Source of the DNA: a candidate division CPR2 bacterium GW2011_GWC2_39_10
GTDB lineage: Bacteria; Patescibacteriota; CPR2
Length of the DNA: 47,571 nucleotides
Assembly: GCA_000993275.1 (NCBI GenBank)
Contig: LBVV01000002.1
Coordinates: 23,194-70,764 of the forward strand
Reading direction: 5' to 3'
The stretch's first letter is position 1, and every line of letters starts with the position of its first letter. Shown in pieces: positions 28,963 to 39,640 of this stretch. The notes under the pieces are model-generated. The model had not been told where the DNA came from and did not search any database. It saw only the letters and a program-made list of their open reading frames with translations. The translations under genes and the position numbers were made by a program.

Positions 28963-31854
28963 TTAGGTCTTTTTTATTTCTACCCAAATCTTCTCCCCGT
29001 TTATCATTAATTCTCTAGCCGTTTCCTTGTTTACGCTTTTTTTTGAGCTTTCTACTTTTGCTCCATTTACAAAAGTTGGATTTTTAACGGCCTGCGCAAG
29101 GATATCACTTTCTGTCTCAAATGAAATATCTATCTTGTCTTCAATTGAAAGACCAATCTCTTTTCTTAAAACCTGAATTTTTCTAAGAATTTCTCTAGCC
29201 AGCCCCTCAAGTTCCAACTCTGGTGTCAGCTTAATATCGAGCGACAATTCTATTGGCGGCTTGGTTTTTAGAGAAACTGTAACTTTGTCCGCAAAATCTG
29301 TGTCTGATTTCGTAAATTCCTTCACATTAAGCTCATCAAGCAGTATGGGAATTAAGTTGTCGTCTAAATTAGCTTTGCCAATTATAGCCGTTACTCTAGC
29401 AAGCGGTTGTCTCACTTTTATTTTTTTATCATCCCGTATGGAAAAGCCCATTTCTACCAGTTTACGCAAATAGCCCATTTCTTTTTCTAGTTCCTCATCA
29501 ATTTTAGAATCATCGCATTGCGGATAACCGGCAAGGTGAACGGATTCCGGCAAAAATAAGCTACTCACAGGAGCTAGGTTTCTGTATATTTCTTCCGTGA
29601 CAAAAGGCATAAGCGGTGCCAAGACCTTTGATAGCTCCAACAATACGAGATAAAGAGTATTTAATGCGTCAATATCTAAAGCCGCAAACCTTTTTCTATT
29701 TCTTCTTATGTACCAATTTGAGAGATCGCCGGCAAAATCTTGAATTTCGCGACAGACAGCTGCAATATCCAAACTCTCAAATTCCTCGGTAACTTTTTTA
29801 ACCAATAAATTAAGCCTGGAAATTATCCATTTGTCCAATAAATCTTCGGTGTTATTTTGACCTGGTTTAAAATTGGCAACGTTTGCATAAATCACAAAAA
29901 AGGAATAGGAGTTCCATAAAGTTAGTAGCAACTTCTTTACAACCTCATCAACGGCTTTTTCAGAAAAATTTAAGTCTCCCGCCCTAACAGCCGGTGAAGA
30001 CATTAGGTAAAATCTCATCGCATCGGCGCCATATTTTTCCATGATATGTGAGGGGTCGGGATAATTTTTAAGTCTTTTCGCCATTTTCTGGCCATCTTCG
30101 GCCAAAACAGTTCCGTTAACAATAACATTTTTATATGGAGATTGACCGAAAAGTGCCGTTCCTATAATCATAAGCGAATTAAACCAACCCCTGGTTTGAT
30201 CTAAGCCCTCTGCAATAAAATCAGCCGGAAAGTCTCTTTTAAATTTATCTTCATTTTCGAAAGGATAATGAATTGAGGCGTAAGGCATGCTGCCGGAATC
30301 GAACCAAACATCTAAGACTTCTCCGGTAACTCTAGAATCTCCACCGCAATCACATTTAATTTCGAGATCCATAATTTTGTGAAGATGAATATCGTCAATA
30401 TTTTTACCGGTTGCAGCATTAAGTTCTGCTACATTGCCGAAAACAACTTGCTTGTTGCATTTTTTACAAGTCCAAACCGGAATCGGCACTCCCCAAAAAC
30501 GGTTCCGCGAAATGTTCCAGTCGGGAGCTGTTTCGATAAGTTTGGCAAACCTGCCGGAGCCAATAAATTCGGGCATCCATTTAACTTTTTTATTATTTTC
30601 AAGCATCCGGCTTCTTATTTTTGAAACGTCAACGAACCAGCTGTCTATGGCTTTATATATTAATGGTGAATCGCAACGCCAGCAATAAGGATAAGGATGA
30701 ACATAATCCTCGACTTTTAATACTTTTCTCCCAAGATTATTAATTATATTCTGATTTGTATCCGTTTTAATAACGCTTTGACCGGCATAATCCGGAACGT
30801 CAATTTCAAACTCGCCCATATCATTAACCGGCATATAGAAAGCGATATTATTTTCTTTGGCAACCCTGTAGTCGTCTTCGCCAAAAGCCGGGGCAATGTG
30901 AACAATTCCGGTTCCATCTTCGGTGGTGACAAAATCTCCGAAAATGACTTCAAAAGCCCTTTTTTCTTCATTGTAGTAATCAAAGATTCGCTCGTATTTT
31001 TTGCCTATAAGATCTTTTCCGCTTAATTCCTCGATAACATTTGCGCCGATTTCGTTTTTGTAATGTTCGGCTCTTTCTTTTGCCAAAATATATTCATCGC
31101 CGTTATGGCTAATTTTTACGTATTTAATGCTTTTACCTACGGCCAAAGCCAAATTGCCAGGTAATGTCCATGGAGTCGTTGTCCAAGCCAAAAAAAACAA
31201 ATTAGGATTATCTGCGGATCTAAATTTAACTGTAATTGCTTTGTCGGTTTTATCTTTATAACCGCCCATACCAACCTCGAAGCTGGAAAGCCCGGTAGCG
31301 CATCTGGGGCAATAAGGCATAACCTTGTGCCCTTTGTATACAAGACCCTTATCCCACAAAGACTTAAACACCCACCAAACAGATTCCATATATTTTGCGT
31401 CCATTGTTATGTAGGCGTTATCCATATCTATCCAGCGGCCGGTTCTTTCAACAATTTTTTGCCATTCCTCGGCGTAACTTAAAACTTTTTCCCGGCATTT
31501 GTCGTTAAATTTATCGATGCCGTATTCCTTAATATGCAGTTTCGTTTTCATATCCAGTTCTTTTTCAACAATGTTTTCAATGGGCAGACCATGAGTATCC
31601 CAGCCCCAAATTCTTTCAACTCTGTAGCCCTGCATGGTTTTTAGGCGCGGAATAACGTCTTTGATTGTTCCGCCTATTAAATGACCATAATGCGGAGTTC
31701 CTGTAGCATAAGGAGGCCCATCATAGAAGGAATAGGTTTTGTCTTTTGGCCGCTCATTTACCGATTTCTCAAATATCTTATTTTCTTTCCAGTATTTTAA
31801 TATTTCTTTTTCCATTTCCGGAAAATTTGGTCTTGGGTTAACAGGTTCTAACAT
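28963..31854 (-). CDS. ileS: isoleucyl-tRNA synthetase
   Basis: A 963-residue class I synthetase. HIGH is HYGH within PYATGTPHYGHLIGG (about 48-62), and KMSKS appears as KMAKR. The editing (CP1) domain includes 'TTTPWTLPGNLALAVG' and 'HIAPAFGEDDYRVAKEN'. Zinc-type Cys pairs (CKKC, CDCGG) are present. The KMAKR variant and the YPDP context recall the archaeal/eukaryotic-like IleRS group, which also includes mupirocin-resistant bacterial forms. GGGAG lies about 7 bases upstream. Expression is controlled by the T-box leader upstream; rodA follows. Confidence 0.96.
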   Translation of the reverse strand: MLEPVNPRPNFPEMEKEILKYWKENKIFEKSVNERPKDKTYSFYDGPPYATGTPHYGHLIGGTIKDVIPRLKTMQGYRVERIWGWDTHGLPIENIVEKELDMKTKLHIKEYGIDKFNDKCREKVLSYAEEWQKIVERTGRWIDMDNAYITMDAKYMESVWWVFKSLWDKGLVYKGHKVMPYCPRCATGLSSFEVGMGGYKDKTDKAITVKFRSADNPNLFFLAWTTTPWTLPGNLALAVGKSIKYVKISHNGDEYILAKERAEHYKNEIGANVIEELSGKDLIGKKYERIFDYYNEEKRAFEVIFGDFVTTEDGTGIVHIAPAFGEDDYRVAKENNIAFYMPVNDMGEFEIDVPDYAGQSVIKTDTNQNIINNLGRKVLKVEDYVHPYPYCWRCDSPLIYKAIDSWFVDVSKIRSRMLENNKKVKWMPEFIGSGRFAKLIETAPDWNISRNRFWGVPIPVWTCKKCNKQVVFGNVAELNAATGKNIDDIHLHKIMDLEIKCDCGGDSRVTGEVLDVWFDSGSMPYASIHYPFENEDKFKRDFPADFIAEGLDQTRGWFNSLMIIGTALFGQSPYKNVIVNGTVLAEDGQKMAKRLKNYPDPSHIMEKYGADAMRFYLMSSPAVRAGDLNFSEKAVDEVVKKLLLTLWNSYSFFVIYANVANFKPGQNNTEDLLDKWIISRLNLLVKKVTEEFESLDIAAVCREIQDFAGDLSNWYIRRNRKRFAALDIDALNTLYLVLLELSKVLAPLMPFVTEEIYRNLAPVSSLFLPESVHLAGYPQCDDSKIDEELEKEMGYLRKLVEMGFSIRDDKKIKVRQPLARVTAIIGKANLDDNLIPILLDELNVKEFTKSDTDFADKVTVSLKTKPPIELSLDIKLTPELELEGLAREILRKIQVLRKEIGLSIEDKIDISFETESDILAQAVKNPTFVNGAKVESSKKSVNKETARELMINGEKIWVEIKKT

Positions 31855-31981: not shown

Positions 31982-32004
31982 AATGTTCCTTTTTATATAA
32001 AAAT

Positions 32005-32028
32005 ATCCCTAAGAATTCTCTTAAGGAT
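32005..32028 (-). terminator. T-box terminator hairpin upstream of ileS
   Basis: The stem ATCCTTAAGA/TCTTAGGGAT (10 bp with one G-U) and a 4-base loop are followed by ATTTTTAT. It is mutually exclusive with the antiterminator that contains the T-box sequence. Confidence 0.8.
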
Positions 32029-32072
32029 CCGGCAATTGCCGGACGGTACCACCTTAATTCGATTAATTATTG

Positions 32073-32117
32073 TTCGAGCGAAGTCGAGAACTTCTCGATT
32101 CTCTTCGTTCACTCGAA
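32073..32117. repeat. palindromic repeat (TTCGAG..CTCGAA type) inside the T-box leader
   Basis: The arms TTCGAGCGAAGTCGAGAA (32073-32090) and its approximate inverted copy (32092-32117) form a hairpin between the ACGGG/CCCGT hairpin and the T-box sequence. Short 'cttcgacttcgctcgaagttctcg' elements of this kind are known as scattered repeats in many bacteria. Confidence 0.6.
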
Positions 32118-32186
32118 GAATAAAATAACCACACTTAATTACTGCTATAACGGGCTTACCCGTCCGGTTCTACTACGCTTATACGT

Positions 32187-32254
32187 GTCATCCTGAACTT
32201 ATTTCAGGATCTCTCCCATTTAATAATGAGATTCTGAAATAAATTCAGAATGAC
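32187..32254. repeat. 27-bp inverted repeat (TCATCCTGAAC family) forming T-box Stem II
   Basis: Two 27-base arms (32187-32213 and 32228-32254), identical at 24 of 27 positions as inverted copies, surround a 14-base loop. In the RNA 24 Watson-Crick and 2 G-U pairs form. Its core (GTCATCCTGAACTT..TTTCAGGATC) resembles the element at 27689-27716. It sits exactly where Stem II of the T-box is expected. Confidence 0.75.
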
Positions 32255-32315
32255 GGTTTTGGCGGTTCTTCCGGCAGCTCGTCCGGTGATAGCCGGACTC
32301 AAAACGCTTTACATG

Positions 32316-33315: not shown

Positions 33316-33344
33316 ATTCTATCAATTGGCTTGTTTTTAGTCAA
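33316..33344 (-). promoter_or_regulatory. promoter of the zinc-finger-like ORF
   Basis: The minus strand has TTGACT (33339-33344), a 17-base spacer, and TAGAAT (33316-33321), overlapping the atpC stop. An overlapping second possibility is TTGATA (33320-33325), 16 bases, GATAAT (33298-33303). Confidence 0.6.
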
Positions 33345-33771
33345 TCCTTATATTCTTGTGAGAACGGTGCTTTCTGACCAATTTGAGCCTTGCCAAGCTT
33401 CTGGCCAGCTCAGCCTCAGCCTTAGCAAAACCTTCGGCATCATCTTCCGCCGCCATCATCAGTCTCTCGGCTCTTTTCCTTGCCTCTGCAGCTTCCTTTT
33501 CTGAAATTTCATGAAGGTGCTCGGCTCCGTCTGCGAGGACTATAACCTTTCCGCCCTCTTCAACGTGAACAAATCCGCCAAGAAGCAGGGTAATCTTTTC
33601 CTCTTTGCCGTTTTTTACAATCATCTCTCCCGGTATAATTTCACCGATTAAAGGAACATGGCCGGCCAAAACAGTAATTTCCCCTGACGCGGTTGGCAGA
33701 ATAATTTCTTCAACTTCTTCCTCAAAAATTACTCTTTCGGGCGTAGTAACTTGAATTTTAAATTTCTTCAT
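33337..33771 (-). CDS. atpC: F1 ATP synthase epsilon subunit
   Basis: A 144-residue epsilon subunit with the N-terminal beta-barrel ('FKIQVTTPERVIFEEEVEEIILPTASGEITVLAGHVPLIGEIIPGEM') and the C-terminal helical hairpin (about 88-135, Ala/Glu-rich), which can extend to inhibit ATP hydrolysis. It is the last gene of the atp operon, separated from atpD by a 77-base gap of TTCCTGG-type repeats. No terminator hairpin is visible after the stop. Confidence 0.95.
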   Translation of the reverse strand: MKKFKIQVTTPERVIFEEEVEEIILPTASGEITVLAGHVPLIGEIIPGEMIVKNGKEEKITLLLGGFVHVEEGGKVIVLADGAEHLHEISEKEAAEARKRAERLMMAAEDDAEGFAKAEAELARSLARLKLVRKHRSHKNIRID

Positions 33772-33792
33772 AATATTTTTCCTTTTTTCGTT

Positions 33793-33846
33793 TCCTAATT
33801 CCTGGTTCCTGGTTCCTGGTTTCTGTTTACTAATTCCTGGTTCCTA
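33793..33846. repeat. short direct repeats (CCTGGTT/CCTAATT units) between atpD and atpC
   Basis: The gap holds TTCCTGG three times in tandem, then TTCTGTTTACTAATTCCTGGTTCCTAAT, a second partial copy of the first block. These 7-base units form a low-complexity element of about 54 bases inside the operon. Confidence 0.7.
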
Positions 33847-33848
33847 AT

Positions 33849-35222
<1,374 letters not shown>

Positions 35223-35261
35223 TCAATTATAAATTTATTCTATGCCCTTTATTAATAAATT

Positions 35262-35376
35262 CAGATGTCAAATTCTAAATCAAATTTGGAAAATTTAAAT
35301 TTAGACCTTCAGATCTGAGATCGTTCAGACTCGAAGAGATTTGATTTGACATTTGAAATTTGTTATTTGACATTTT
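35262..35376. repeat. TTTGACATTTGAAATTTG-type palindromic repeat between atpG and atpD
   Basis: A left arm beginning ATGTCAAATTCTAAATCAAATTTG (35264-35287) is matched by an inverted right arm rich in GATTTGATTTGACATTTGAAAT (about 35338-35374). A short central segment has AGATCTGAGATCGTTCAGA-like sequence. The 173-base gap holds no ORF. The element is AT-rich and can form a long imperfect hairpin. Confidence 0.6.
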
Positions 35377-35383
35377 CCCTCTC

Positions 35384-36232
35384 CTATTCTTCCAGCGTCA
35401 TTTTACCTGCGGAAATTTCCGCAATTTCCCTGGTAATGGTTGCCTGCCTAGTTTGATTATAAGAAAGCGTTAAGTCGTCTATTAATTCAAGAGCATTTTC
35501 ACTGGCATTCTTCATAGCCATCATTCTTGCGGAATGTTCTGACGCTATTGATTCAAGCATTGACTGCCAAATTTTAATTTCCAAAAATCTTGGAATCAAA
35601 TCGTCTAATAATATGTCCTTTTCCGGTTCAAAAACAATTCTTTCCTGATTTAAAACCTTTTCCTTATTTTCAAGCGGCAACAGCTTAGTTGCAATCGGCT
35701 CTTGACTTAAAGTTGAAACGAAGTGCGTATAAACCAATTTAATTTCATAATATTTTCCGGAAGTAAAATCATCTGTAATAATTTTGCTTATTGGTAAAAT
35801 ATCCTTAAATTTTGGTTTTTCCTCAATTTTTGTAAAATCAGCGATTATATTTTTCCCCAATGCTCTAAGCGCGTCGCGCCCTTTCCTTCCGATAGTTAAA
35901 AAGTCCGTATCTTTGTCTTTTGATAAATCTATTGCCTTTCGAATTGCTTTCGAATTTAAACCGCCGCATAAACCCCTGTCGGAAGTGATGAAAACCACTA
36001 ACTGTTTTTTTGCGTTGATACCAGGCAACAAAAAAGGATGATCGGTCTCGCTTACATTAATTACCAAATTTTTAAGAATATCTTCCGCGGCCTTGCTATA
36101 ATTTCTTGATCTTGCGTTTATGGCAATAGCTTTTTGCATTTTAATAACCGAGATAAGCTCCATGGCTTTAATTATCTGCTTGGTGTTGGAAACTGATTTA
36201 ATTCTTCTTCTAACTTCTTTTGCTGAAGCCAC
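35384..36232 (-). CDS. atpG: F1 ATP synthase gamma subunit
   Basis: The 282-residue rotor shaft. The N-terminal coiled-coil helix 'KEVRRRIKSVSNTKQIIKAMELISVIKMQKA' and the C-terminal helix 'ARMMAMKNASENALELIDDLTLSYNQTRQATITREIAEISAG' are typical, as is 'ITSDRGLCGGLNS'. It overlaps the atpA stop by one base. Confidence 0.97.
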   Translation of the reverse strand: MASAKEVRRRIKSVSNTKQIIKAMELISVIKMQKAIAINARSRNYSKAAEDILKNLVINVSETDHPFLLPGINAKKQLVVFITSDRGLCGGLNSKAIRKAIDLSKDKDTDFLTIGRKGRDALRALGKNIIADFTKIEEKPKFKDILPISKIITDDFTSGKYYEIKLVYTHFVSTLSQEPIATKLLPLENKEKVLNQERIVFEPEKDILLDDLIPRFLEIKIWQSMLESIASEHSARMMAMKNASENALELIDDLTLSYNQTRQATITREIAEISAGKMTLEE

Positions 36233-37734
36233 TAAAATTCTCCTGCAACTTTTTTAAGAATATTTTTTAATTCTTTCTCCAGTTCATCGGTTAAATCACC
36301 TTCTTTGGTTAATTTTTTTACAAAATCCTTATCCCTCGCATCCAAATAATCAAATAAATTACTTTCAAACTCTTTTATCCTTCCAAGTTCAATTTCGTCT
36401 AGGTATCCATTTGTACCGGCAAAAATAATGGCAACCTGCTTTTCAACTGCAAGCGGAGCATATTGGTCCTGTTTTAATATTTCTACCAATCTTTTTCCTC
36501 TTTCAATTCGTTGTCTAGTCTCCTCATCTAAATCTGAAGCAAATTGGGCAAATGACTGTAATTCTCTAAACTGAGCAAGTTCCAGTCGTAATTTTCCCGC
36601 AACTTTTTTCATGCATTTCATTTGAGCCGCAGAACCTACTCTTGAAACTGATAAGCCAACGTTTAATGCGGGCCTAATTCCCTGATAAAATAAGTCATTT
36701 TCTAAGAAAATTTGACCGTCAGTAATAGAAATTACATTTGTGGGAATATAAGCCGAAATGTCACCGGCCTGAGTTTCTATAATGGGTAATGCCGTAATTG
36801 AACCGCCGCCGTATTTTTCGTCTCTCCTACAAGCTCTTTCCAAGAGCCTCGAATGAAGATAAAAAACGTCTCCAGGATAAGCCTCCCTGCCGGGCGGTCT
36901 TCTTAGTAGCAAAGAAACCTGCCTGTAAGACCATGCATGTTTAGACAAATCATCATAAACTATAAGGACATCTTTGCCTTGATCCATAAAGTATTCGGCG
37001 ATAGAAACTCCGGAATAAGGGGCGATATATAGATAAGGTGCCGGATCGGAAGCGCTTGCCATAACAATAATTGTATTTTTCATGGCGTCGTTCTCTTCTA
37101 AAATGGCAACCATTTTTGCCACCTTTGATCTCTTTTGACCAATTGCGACATAAACACATACCACATCTGAATCTTTTTGGTTGATTATGGTATCTATGGC
37201 GATGGCAGTCTTGCCTGTTTGTCGATCACCAATAATAAGTTCCCTTTGCCCTCTTCCAATTGGAATGACGGAATCAATTGCCTTGATGCCTGTTTGCAAA
37301 GGCGTCGAAACAGATTTTCTAGAAATTACGCTCGGTGCAATTTTTTCAACCGGATAAAATTCCTTCGATTTGTTTTCATTTTTACCATCAATATATTCTC
37401 CGAGAGGATTAACTACGCGTCCTTTTAGTTCGTCTGATACCGGAATTTCCAGGATTCGGCCTGTCGTTCTTACTTCATCGCCTTCACTTACGCTGCTAGA
37501 CTCGCCCATTATCATAATACCCACAGCATCTTCTTCAAGATTTAGCGCAATACCATAAACACCCGACTCAAATTGAACCATCTCAAAAGACATCACTTCC
37601 GACATGCCAATGGCTTTGCAAATACCGTCTCCCACAGAAGTTACTTTTCCGGTTTTATAAGTTTTAGGGTCTGTTTTAATTCCGGATAATTCTTCTTCAA
37701 GTTTTTTAATTAAATATTCTTTACTGTTGATCAT
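36232..37734 (-). CDS. atpA: F1 ATP synthase alpha subunit
   Basis: The 500-residue non-catalytic nucleotide-binding subunit. Walker A is [11 protein letters not shown] (about 169-179). '[18 protein letters not shown]', '[42 protein letters not shown]' and '[32 protein letters not shown]' are diagnostic. It lies 9 bases after atpH in the operon. Confidence 0.98.
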
Positions 37735-37743
37735 TTTTTACTC

Positions 37744-38121
37744 CTAAAGCGTTGTATTTATGATTCTTTCTTTAATTTGATTTATTCTTTCTCTGCCGCT
37801 GCCGTCTATAACCGTTTCGCCAATTTTTATGATTATACCGGCAACAATATTATTATTAACCCTAAATTTAATATTTATAGGGTCTCCGATCTTTAATGAT
37901 TTGACAATTTCATTTCTTTCCAATTCAGAAAGCTCCTTTGCGCTCGTAATCTCGATATAACCTGCATCAAACTGACTTAAGTTTCTAATGCTGCGAGCAA
38001 TAGTTTTGATTTTATTCGGGTAAGCCTTAGCAATTTTAGAAACATATCTATTGATATCGGAAGCATCTTTGCCCGCCGATTGTTTAATCAAAACTTTAGC
38101 TATTTGGGTTGATCCAATCAT
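37744..38121 (-). CDS. atpH: F1 ATP synthase delta subunit, short
   Basis: At 125 residues this is much shorter than the usual roughly 180. The C-terminal half carries the family pattern 'NNIVAGIIIKIGETVIDGSGRERINQIKERI', while the N-terminal helical bundle that caps the alpha subunits is reduced. Position between atpF and atpA supports the assignment. A single base separates its ATG from the atpF stop. No frameshift was noticed, so the short form appears genuine. Confidence 0.85.
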   Translation of the reverse strand: MIGSTQIAKVLIKQSAGKDASDINRYVSKIAKAYPNKIKTIARSIRNLSQFDAGYIEITSAKELSELERNEIVKSLKIGDPINIKFRVNNNIVAGIIIKIGETVIDGSGRERINQIKERIINTTL

Positions 38122-38625
38122 TTAAACCCTAACCTTTTTTGCTTCATTTAATGTATCTTCAATTAGTTTTAGATTAACATTCTTATAGTCCTCGTCCATG
38201 AAAGATGTTACGGATTTTGCAACTATGCCCGCTATTTCTTTCCTTACGTCTAGAAGCATTTCTGATTTTTCTTTTCGAGCCTCAACTCCCGCATTCTCAA
38301 TAATTTTTTTTGCTTTTATGTCTGCATCTTTAATCATTGATATTTTTGTTTCCTCAATCTTCTCCCTGGCTTCGCCCAAAAGTACAGTTGCTTTTTCCTT
38401 TATCTTCCTCGCAGATTCCTTTTCCATCTCTTGAATATCTTCAAGCCTTTTTTCAATTTCTTCCACATTCTCAAGCGACTTTTCGATTTTTTTTGATCTT
38501 TCGTCTAACATCTTTAATGTGGGCTTATAAAGAAATTTATAAAGTATGAAAAGAAGTAAAGAAAAATTGATGCCTTGAGCCAATAATAATTTGGGATCAA
38601 TTCCCAGGTTATGCAATGCTTCCAT
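38122..38625 (-). CDS. atpF: Fo ATP synthase b subunit
   Basis: A 167-residue peripheral-stalk protein. One N-terminal transmembrane helix (about 13-33, 'LLLAQGINFSLLLFILYKFLYKPTLKMLDERS') is followed by a long Lys/Glu-rich helix and coiled coil up to the C-terminus. It lies between atpE and atpH. Confidence 0.95.
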   Translation of the reverse strand: MEALHNLGIDPKLLLAQGINFSLLLFILYKFLYKPTLKMLDERSKKIEKSLENVEEIEKRLEDIQEMEKESARKIKEKATVLLGEAREKIEETKISMIKDADIKAKKIIENAGVEARKEKSEMLLDVRKEIAGIVAKSVTSFMDEDYKNVNLKLIEDTLNEAKKVRV

Positions 38626-38634
38626 AAATATTCC

Positions 38635-38862
<228 letters not shown>

Positions 38863-38890
38863 TTAAATTCTCCTTTTATTGATTATTAAC

Positions 38891-39640
38891 TTAATGACTT
38901 TCACTATGCACGACTGTTGCCATAGACATGAAAACTATAGATAACATTGTAAAAACAAGTGCCTGAACAGCTCCTACAAAAATCTCCATTATATAGAAAG
39001 GTAACGGAATAAAATATGGGACCAATGTTGACATAACCGCAAGCAAAACTTCTCCTGCAAAAACATTGCCAAATAATCTGAATGAATATGAAATAATCCT
39101 TGATACCTCTGATATCGTCTCAATAATTCCAACGAAAAAATTTACGGGTGACGAAAAATTAATGAATTTACCGGCATATTTTTTCACCCCGATGGCGGCA
39201 ATACCCATGACTTGGACGGCAATAACGGTAACTATAGCGATAGCAATGGTGGTATTTAAATCGGCCGTGCCGGCTCTTAAGAGCGGCACCAGAACCTGAT
39301 GACCCTCGGCGTTCGTTTCATGGAAACCAACCGACCCGAAACCCGGAAGAAGTCCCATCCAGTTGTTAAATAGAATGAAGATAAAAAAAGTGGCAACTAA
39401 AGGAAATATCTTTTTAGTGAGCTTTCTATCCTTCGTAATGCCCTCTGTTAAATTAAAGAGTGCTTCAATTATATATTCAGAAATATTTTGGAGTCCTTTC
39501 GGTATGTTCTCCATTTTTCTGGTTGCCAAAAAAGAAAGCAAAAAAAGTAGGCCAAAAACGAGCCAGGCAGCTAACATGCTGTTGGTAAACGGAATTGATC
39601 CAATATGAAATATTGATTCTGCAGAAATTGAAATATGCAC
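38891..39640 (-). CDS. atpB: Fo ATP synthase a subunit
   Basis: A 249-residue membrane stator with about six helices. The essential Arg is in 'RIISYSFRLFGNVFAGEVLL', and 'LFNNWMGLLPGF' and the C-terminal 'VGAVQALVFTMLSIVFM' are typical. The GTG start lies right after the AtpI stop, with AGGGAAG upstream. Confidence 0.96.
   Translation of the reverse strand: MHISISAESIFHIGSIPFTNSMLAAWLVFGLLFLLSFLATRKMENIPKGLQNISEYIIEALFNLTEGITKDRKLTKKIFPLVATFFIFILFNNWMGLLPGFGSVGFHETNAEGHQVLVPLLRAGTADLNTTIAIAIVTVIAVQVMGIAAIGVKKYAGKFINFSSPVNFFVGIIETISEVSRIISYSFRLFGNVFAGEVLLAVMSTLVPYFIPLPFYIMEIFVGAVQALVFTMLSIVFMSMATVVHSESH

Follow-up and report, generated by a model that had tools for sequence, protein, structure and literature searches.

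A predicted Class III T-box leader with a candidate intrinsic terminator upstream of ileS in a CPR2 bacterium

Introduction

T-box riboswitches are divided into long-stem elements, which bear the IDTM and act on transcription, and short-stem elements, which mostly act on translation, and this split is explained by the need for fast tRNA capture. The closest described relatives of the leader analyzed here are the ileS T-boxes of Actinobacteria, which have no terminators and in which the Shine-Dalgarno (SD) site is sequestered by a hairpin (PMC1262725). Class III and IV T-boxes "mostly regulate translation initiation" (PMC10482949), and transcriptional T-boxes are described as generally requiring the IDTM, which binds the tRNA elbow (PMC7583486). 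The first two of these sources agree with the original prediction for the present locus, in which ileS T-boxes with a short Stem I were said to be best known from Actinobacteria and to be translational there.

A survey of 2008 listed T-boxes in Firmicutes, Actinobacteria, Chloroflexi, Deinococcus, and two Proteobacteria (PMC2494555). The short-stem ("class II") model of TBDB was run solely on Actinobacteria and on Rfam-type matches with a truncated Stem I (PMC7778990), which would explain why the Patescibacteria group described below was overlooked. No paper joining a T-box riboswitch with Patescibacteria or the Candidate Phyla Radiation (CPR) was found in a search that lay mostly outside the subscription literature, and short-stem T-boxes with terminators may already have been described elsewhere.

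Results

The ileS leader and its likely promoter

The analyzed window is a stretch of 47,571 nucleotides from the candidate division CPR2 bacterium GW2011_GWC2_39_10. On its minus strand, to which all features below belong, a complete T-box leader (32313-32003) lies 5' of the regulated gene ileS (28963-31854), encoding isoleucine--tRNA ligase (TIGR00392, 944.9 bits against a cut-off of 621.4). The SD sequence of ileS is GAGGGAG (31866-31860), and the distance to it from the terminator is about 140 nt. The T-box parts, all of which had been claimed to be readable, were each located in their place on this strand.

Because the promoter scan gave no minus-strand site over threshold, the likely promoter of ileS (32344-32312) is a weak call made by eye. 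It consists of TTGTAG (32344-32339), a 17-nt spacer, and the -10 element TAAAAT (about 32321-32316), with a start at about 32310. The orthologous locus in a genome of the same genus, G001, has TTGATA-N17-TATAAT at the position matching this promoter. The genes 5' of the ileS region (33337-39640) were recognized by eye, from their translations, as encoding the ATP synthase.

Architecture of the leader

Stem I with its K-turn-like base (32308-32276) reads, 5' to 3', AAAGCGUUUUGA-GUCCGG-CUAUCA-CCGGAC-GAGCU. The stem proper is the 6-bp hairpin GUCCGG/CCGGAC (32298-32281) with the 6-nt apical loop CUAUCA, and the base is formed by the C-stem AGC/GCU with UGA/GA, the K-turn being read by eye. The isoleucine specifier AUC, which the original prediction had placed in a tiny Stem I, indeed occupies this loop (32290-32288) and is complementary to the anticodon GAU of the genome's tRNA-Ile. 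In an alignment of 19 leaders, 6/6 pairs of Stem I and 2/3 of the C-stem vary on both sides. The ileS leader has nothing further of Stem I beyond the 6-bp helix and the K-turn-like base, and no IDTM; it is therefore filed as a short-stem variant and not as Class I. Class III (short Stem I) T-boxes carry the specifier in an apical loop of five or six nucleotides, and such a loop is found here. As read from its sequence, the leader is of Class III architecture.

Stem II (32274-32164) is built from the base helix CCGG/CCGG and the S-turn strands AAGAA and AGUAGA. Its two base strands, CCGGAAGAA (32274-32266) and AGUAGAACCGG (32174-32164), had been noticed in the original prediction as linkers; the sequences are present as described, but they belong to a helix that has 100% of cells paired and covaries in 4/4 pairs in the 19 leaders, flanked by the S-turn (loop E) strands GGAAGAA and AGUAGA. 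Pairs of the upper helix of Stem II are predicted in the relatives. The adjoining candidate Stem IIA/B pseudoknot region, or F-box, is ACGGGUAAGCCCGUUAUAGC (32163-32144); its IIA helix is present and nearly invariant in the 19 leaders, and the putative IIB pairing was read by eye from the sequence. The AAGUG purine element and Stem III (32138-32060) fold at -24.3 kcal/mol, and a palindrome extends Stem III to about 70 nt, versus about 11-25 in the relatives.

The antiterminator (32057-32021) reads UUAAGG-UGGUACC-G-UCCGGCAAUUGCCGGA-UCCUUAA and comprises helix A1 (UUAAGG/CCUUAA), the bulge UGGUACC (32051-32045), and helix A2 (UCCGGC/GCCGGA). Compensatory changes across the 19 leaders were observed for 5/6 pairs of A1 and 3/3 of A2 (8/9 together).

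Covariance models and covariation

The Rfam T-box model RF00230, proposed in the original prediction as a check, matches the leader at 32020-32232 with 35.4 bits (E 2.9e-6 for the 561-base stretch searched, 1.3e-6 genome-wide). This score is under the gathering score of 93, and for this reason a standard Rfam scan is silent on the leader; the cut-off is a curated value rather than a property of T-box structure, and the model is one in which a long Stem I is expected. No Rfam family reaches its gathering threshold in the window, and none does so in seven leaders of this leader's family. The Rfam T-box threshold misses nearly all of the Patescibacteria group, with genomes over the cut-off numbering 3/97. 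MicroRNA families that matched at the Stem II insert scored far under their gathering thresholds and were dismissed as fortuitous similarity to a long hairpin.

A clade covariance model was built from the 19 leaders, including that of the window, with the long apices of Stems II and III shortened in the alignment. The ileS leader is its sole match in the window (63 bits, E 1.6e-14, with its own sequence in the model), and hence the independent support comes from the other leaders. Pairs were counted on a structure written from the known T-box architecture. Compensatory change, with both sides varying, occurs in 20/25 pairs; 94.8% of the cells pair, compared with 23-54% when the partners are slid; and the covariation score is 0.547 versus 0.217 in shuffled alignments and 0.055-0.177 with slid partners. 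RNAalifold, supplied with no structure, returned helices identical to those written down. The structure is common to the paralogous valS leader of the same genome and to orthologues in other genera. The leader RNA folds far better than its shuffles (z -8.1), but this value mainly reflects the inserted palindromes and by itself counts for little; because the palindromes dominate it, the unconstrained fold of the whole leader was left out of the structural model.

The Rfam score below the gathering cut-off and the dispersed repeats, which add stable structure, are what one would expect if the region resembled a T-box by chance or were a structured repeat region of another kind. Such an origin is hardly credible in view of the covariation and the clade-model match, as well as the tRNA matches, the gene context, and the phylum-wide occurrence presented below, and we regard the ileS leader as a real T-box that is probably functional.

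Matches to tRNA and sister leaders

The tRNA-Ile(GAU) of this genome ends in A73-CCA, and its GAU can pair with the specifier AUC and its ACCA with UGGU of the bulge. The search of the same genome with RF00230 yielded two further leaders, before valS (50.9 bits) and before thrS (15.5 bits, weak). The valS leader combines GUC and UGGU, matching tRNA-Val(GAC) that ends in ACCA (A73), and the thrS leader combines ACC and UGGA, matching tRNA-Thr(GGU) that ends in UCCA (U73). Thus, the bulge base tracks the tRNA discriminator base in 3/3 cases. ARAGORN reports an additional tRNA-Ile with anticodon UAU in this genome (L092, contig C3).

The valS leader (L001, C5:300-600) has the same T-box scaffold as that of ileS, with GUC in a larger loop, the consensus promoter TTGACA-N17-TATAAT upstream, and a compact terminator. 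The thrS leaders of this genome (L003, C26:10854-11103, minus) and of G002, from a related genus (L068), combine a short Stem I, whose loop of 9 nt includes CUCACCAA (specifier ACC), with a UGGA bulge, and contain no recognizable Stem II S-turn (no AGUAGA). Loops similar to CUCACCAA also precede thrS in G066 and G053. The thrS leaders possibly represent a further short-stem architecture.

Predicted terminator and likely mode of action

The predicted intrinsic terminator (32028-31995) has the form AUCCUUAAGA-GAAU-UCUUAGGGAU (32028-32005) followed by AUUUUUAUAU, that is, AUCCUUAAGAGAAUUCUUAGGGAU-AUUUUUAUAU when read 5' to 3'. The hairpin has 10 bp and -10.6 kcal/mol, and the U-tract that follows it is interrupted. 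The 3' strand of A1 is part of the hairpin's 5' arm, UCCUUAA being common to the terminator and the antiterminator, and the two structures are mutually exclusive by sequence; at this level, the competition between them claimed in the original prediction is borne out. In the G001 orthologue, the hairpin, its loop, and the U-tract are identical, and the A2 loop and the apices of Stems II and III differ. When the 3' domain is folded by itself, the calculation favours the terminator, as expected if the switch were off by default, which is no proof of switching.

A hairpin with a U-run was counted as terminator-like when its 5' arm began at the A1 strand or close to it. Such hairpins follow 62/98 CPR leaders versus 35/187 control windows taken just upstream of T-boxes, and in about one third of the relatives no hairpin qualified. 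U-runs alone were found after 93/98 leaders and in 98/187 control windows.

The leader could alternatively be a translational T-box as in Actinobacteria, whose architecture it shares. In the charged state, the 3' strand of A1 (UCCUU) would then pair with AGGGA of the ileS SD, as it is able to do, and the hairpin would be no working terminator. However, UCCUUAA has a 10-bp partner 4 nt away that is followed by a U-tract, and the SD lies about 140 nt on, beyond a repeat element, and pairs in the unconstrained fold with Stem I, not with A1; no SD-sequestering hairpin replaces the terminator in the ileS leader. We consider translational control unlikely. Taken together, the shared UCCUUAA, the conservation in G001, the counts in the 98 leaders, and the SD distance make transcriptional attenuation the most likely mode of action of the ileS leader, and the original prediction that it should act on transcription is upheld to the extent that sequence can support it.

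Palindromic repeats in and around the leader

The ileS leader has about 290 nt, and most relatives outside its family about 145-160 nt. Its roughly twofold length is due to palindromic insertions in Stems II and III, which were absent from the original prediction, as was the repeat between the terminator and ileS. A dispersed palindromic repeat (32254-32187) makes up the apex of Stem II; it is an inverted repeat with 27-nt arms that are 89% complementary. It has about 30 full or partial (half) matches in the genome and recurs in Stem II of the valS leader (C5:361-424) and in the thrS leader. Copies are also present in G001, G002, and G013, a genome of the same class, and in G002 the repeat lies within Stem II of both the ileS and valS leaders. 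The Stem III palindrome of the ileS leader is matched in the rest of the genome just partially and over short lengths, and different palindromes lengthen Stem III in the valS leader of G001 and in both leaders of G002. A second dispersed palindromic repeat, also an inverted repeat, is situated between the terminator and ileS (31998-31866); with E values of up to 1 admitted, it has 46 matches in the genome, the better of which share 67-80% identity over 100-130 nt.

The Stem III elements of the G001 valS leader (L062) and the G002 ileS leader (L071) are long palindromes of the GTCATTGCGAG...CTCGCAATGAC type. In the latter, a second palindrome is apparently nested inside the first.

The excess length and the presence of repeats at three places might indicate decay, with the palindromes in Stems II and III having broken the sensor, so that the leader would be inert or would attenuate constitutively. 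This is quite unlikely, as all functional motifs are intact, the repeats, which form hairpins of their own, are confined to the tips of hairpins and to sequence beyond the T-box, and the core and the terminator are kept in G001 and G002 despite their own repeats at corresponding places. A modest reading of the repeat positions is that insertion is tolerated in these places, where self-complementary inserts do least harm. It is also conceivable, though doubtful, that the mobile palindromes at the Stem II and III apices of the ileS and valS T-boxes have been recruited as working parts, and that the added length would slow the polymerase on its way to the terminator, giving a T-box that has no IDTM time for tRNA capture.

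Distribution in Patescibacteria

Leaders matching the clade model were found in 161 of 379 genomes sampled across Patescibacteria, where they precede ileS, valS, aspS, and tyrS and carry fitting specifiers. Among 80 ileS loci from named records, 24 were matched by the model. Each match is 5' of ileS and in the coding orientation; most are within a few hundred bases of the gene, and one (L117) is about 1.5 kb off. All matches with informative names are from CPR, namely Magasanikbacteria, Moraniibacteriota, Gottesmanbacteria, Woesebacteria, Doudnabacteria, Microgenomates, and others, and the ileS loci of Spirochaetes, Gammaproteobacteria, Chlamydiae, and Chloroflexi among the 80 gave no match.

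In the 98 CPR leaders, the specifier is GUC before valS in 23/24 cases (counted by eye) and AUC before ileS in 49/58, most downstream gene calls resting on short N-terminal motifs. The automated specifier table wrongly labels some ValS leaders AUC at GUCAUC or GGAUAAUGUC, and these were recounted by eye. Genes of the AspRS type are preceded by GAC or AAC, and one tyrS by UAC; AAC before an AspRS-type gene can reasonably be expected where AspRS also charges tRNA-Asn. Stem I loops of the valS relatives have 7 or 10 nt. Some of the exceptions among the ileS specifiers are leaders in which Stem I is misaligned by the clade model. In another exception, the G013 ileS leader (L106, 2686-2847), the Stem I loop is GAAUGACCAG, without an Ile codon. 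The remaining T-box and the terminator of this leader are intact.

The ileS leader is thus not a single odd case but one member of a large CPR-wide group, which, as far as we found, is apparently undescribed.

Discussion

We propose, with a probability of about 0.87, that the leader is a Class III T-box that senses tRNA-Ile and attenuates the transcription of ileS. AUC in the Stem I apical loop would read the GAU anticodon of tRNA-Ile. By analogy with the ileS leaders of Nocardia and Mycobacterium, the S-turn of Stem II should hold the paired codon and anticodon in place. The ACCA end of uncharged tRNA-Ile would pair with UGGU of the bulge and stabilize the antiterminator, allowing the polymerase to enter ileS. 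With charged tRNA-Ile, the antiterminator would not be held, UCCUUAA would join the downstream hairpin, and transcription would stop in the U-tract. The tRNA binding, the sensitivity to charging, and the termination are what we infer from the sequence of the leader.

Almost nothing is known of gene regulation in these bacteria, to which the CPR-wide group contributes a widespread regulatory RNA. If short-stem T-boxes with terminators are common in Patescibacteria, the explanation of the class division by fast tRNA capture becomes testable: the ileS leader has no long Stem I or IDTM, contrary to the requirement described for transcriptional T-boxes (PMC7583486).

Comparison with known systems

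The nearest counterparts are the Class III ileS leaders of Nocardia farcinica and Mycobacterium tuberculosis, with which the CPR leader shares the short Stem I without IDTM, the specifier in a 6-nt apical loop, the Stem II S-turn, a putative IIA/B region, Stem III, the UGGN bulge, and the regulated gene itself. Unlike these leaders, it has a predicted intrinsic terminator in place of SD sequestration and belongs to a CPR host; the scaffold of its CPR relatives also serves Val, Asp, Asn, and Tyr codons; the loops of CPR valS leaders have 7 or 10 nt; and its own family carries palindromic repeats in Stems II and III. With the Class I leaders of Firmicutes (B. subtilis tyrS and S. aureus ileS; RF00230) it has in common the antiterminator/terminator logic, the bulge, and the Stem II S-turn, but the long Stem I with an apical IDTM is absent from it, and it scores far under the RF00230 gathering threshold. 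Finally, the Class II glycyl leader of B. subtilis glyQS is likewise a transcriptional switch of an aminoacyl-tRNA synthetase gene, as predicted here for ileS, but glyQS lacks Stem II and its Stem I is long, the reverse of what the CPR ileS leader shows.
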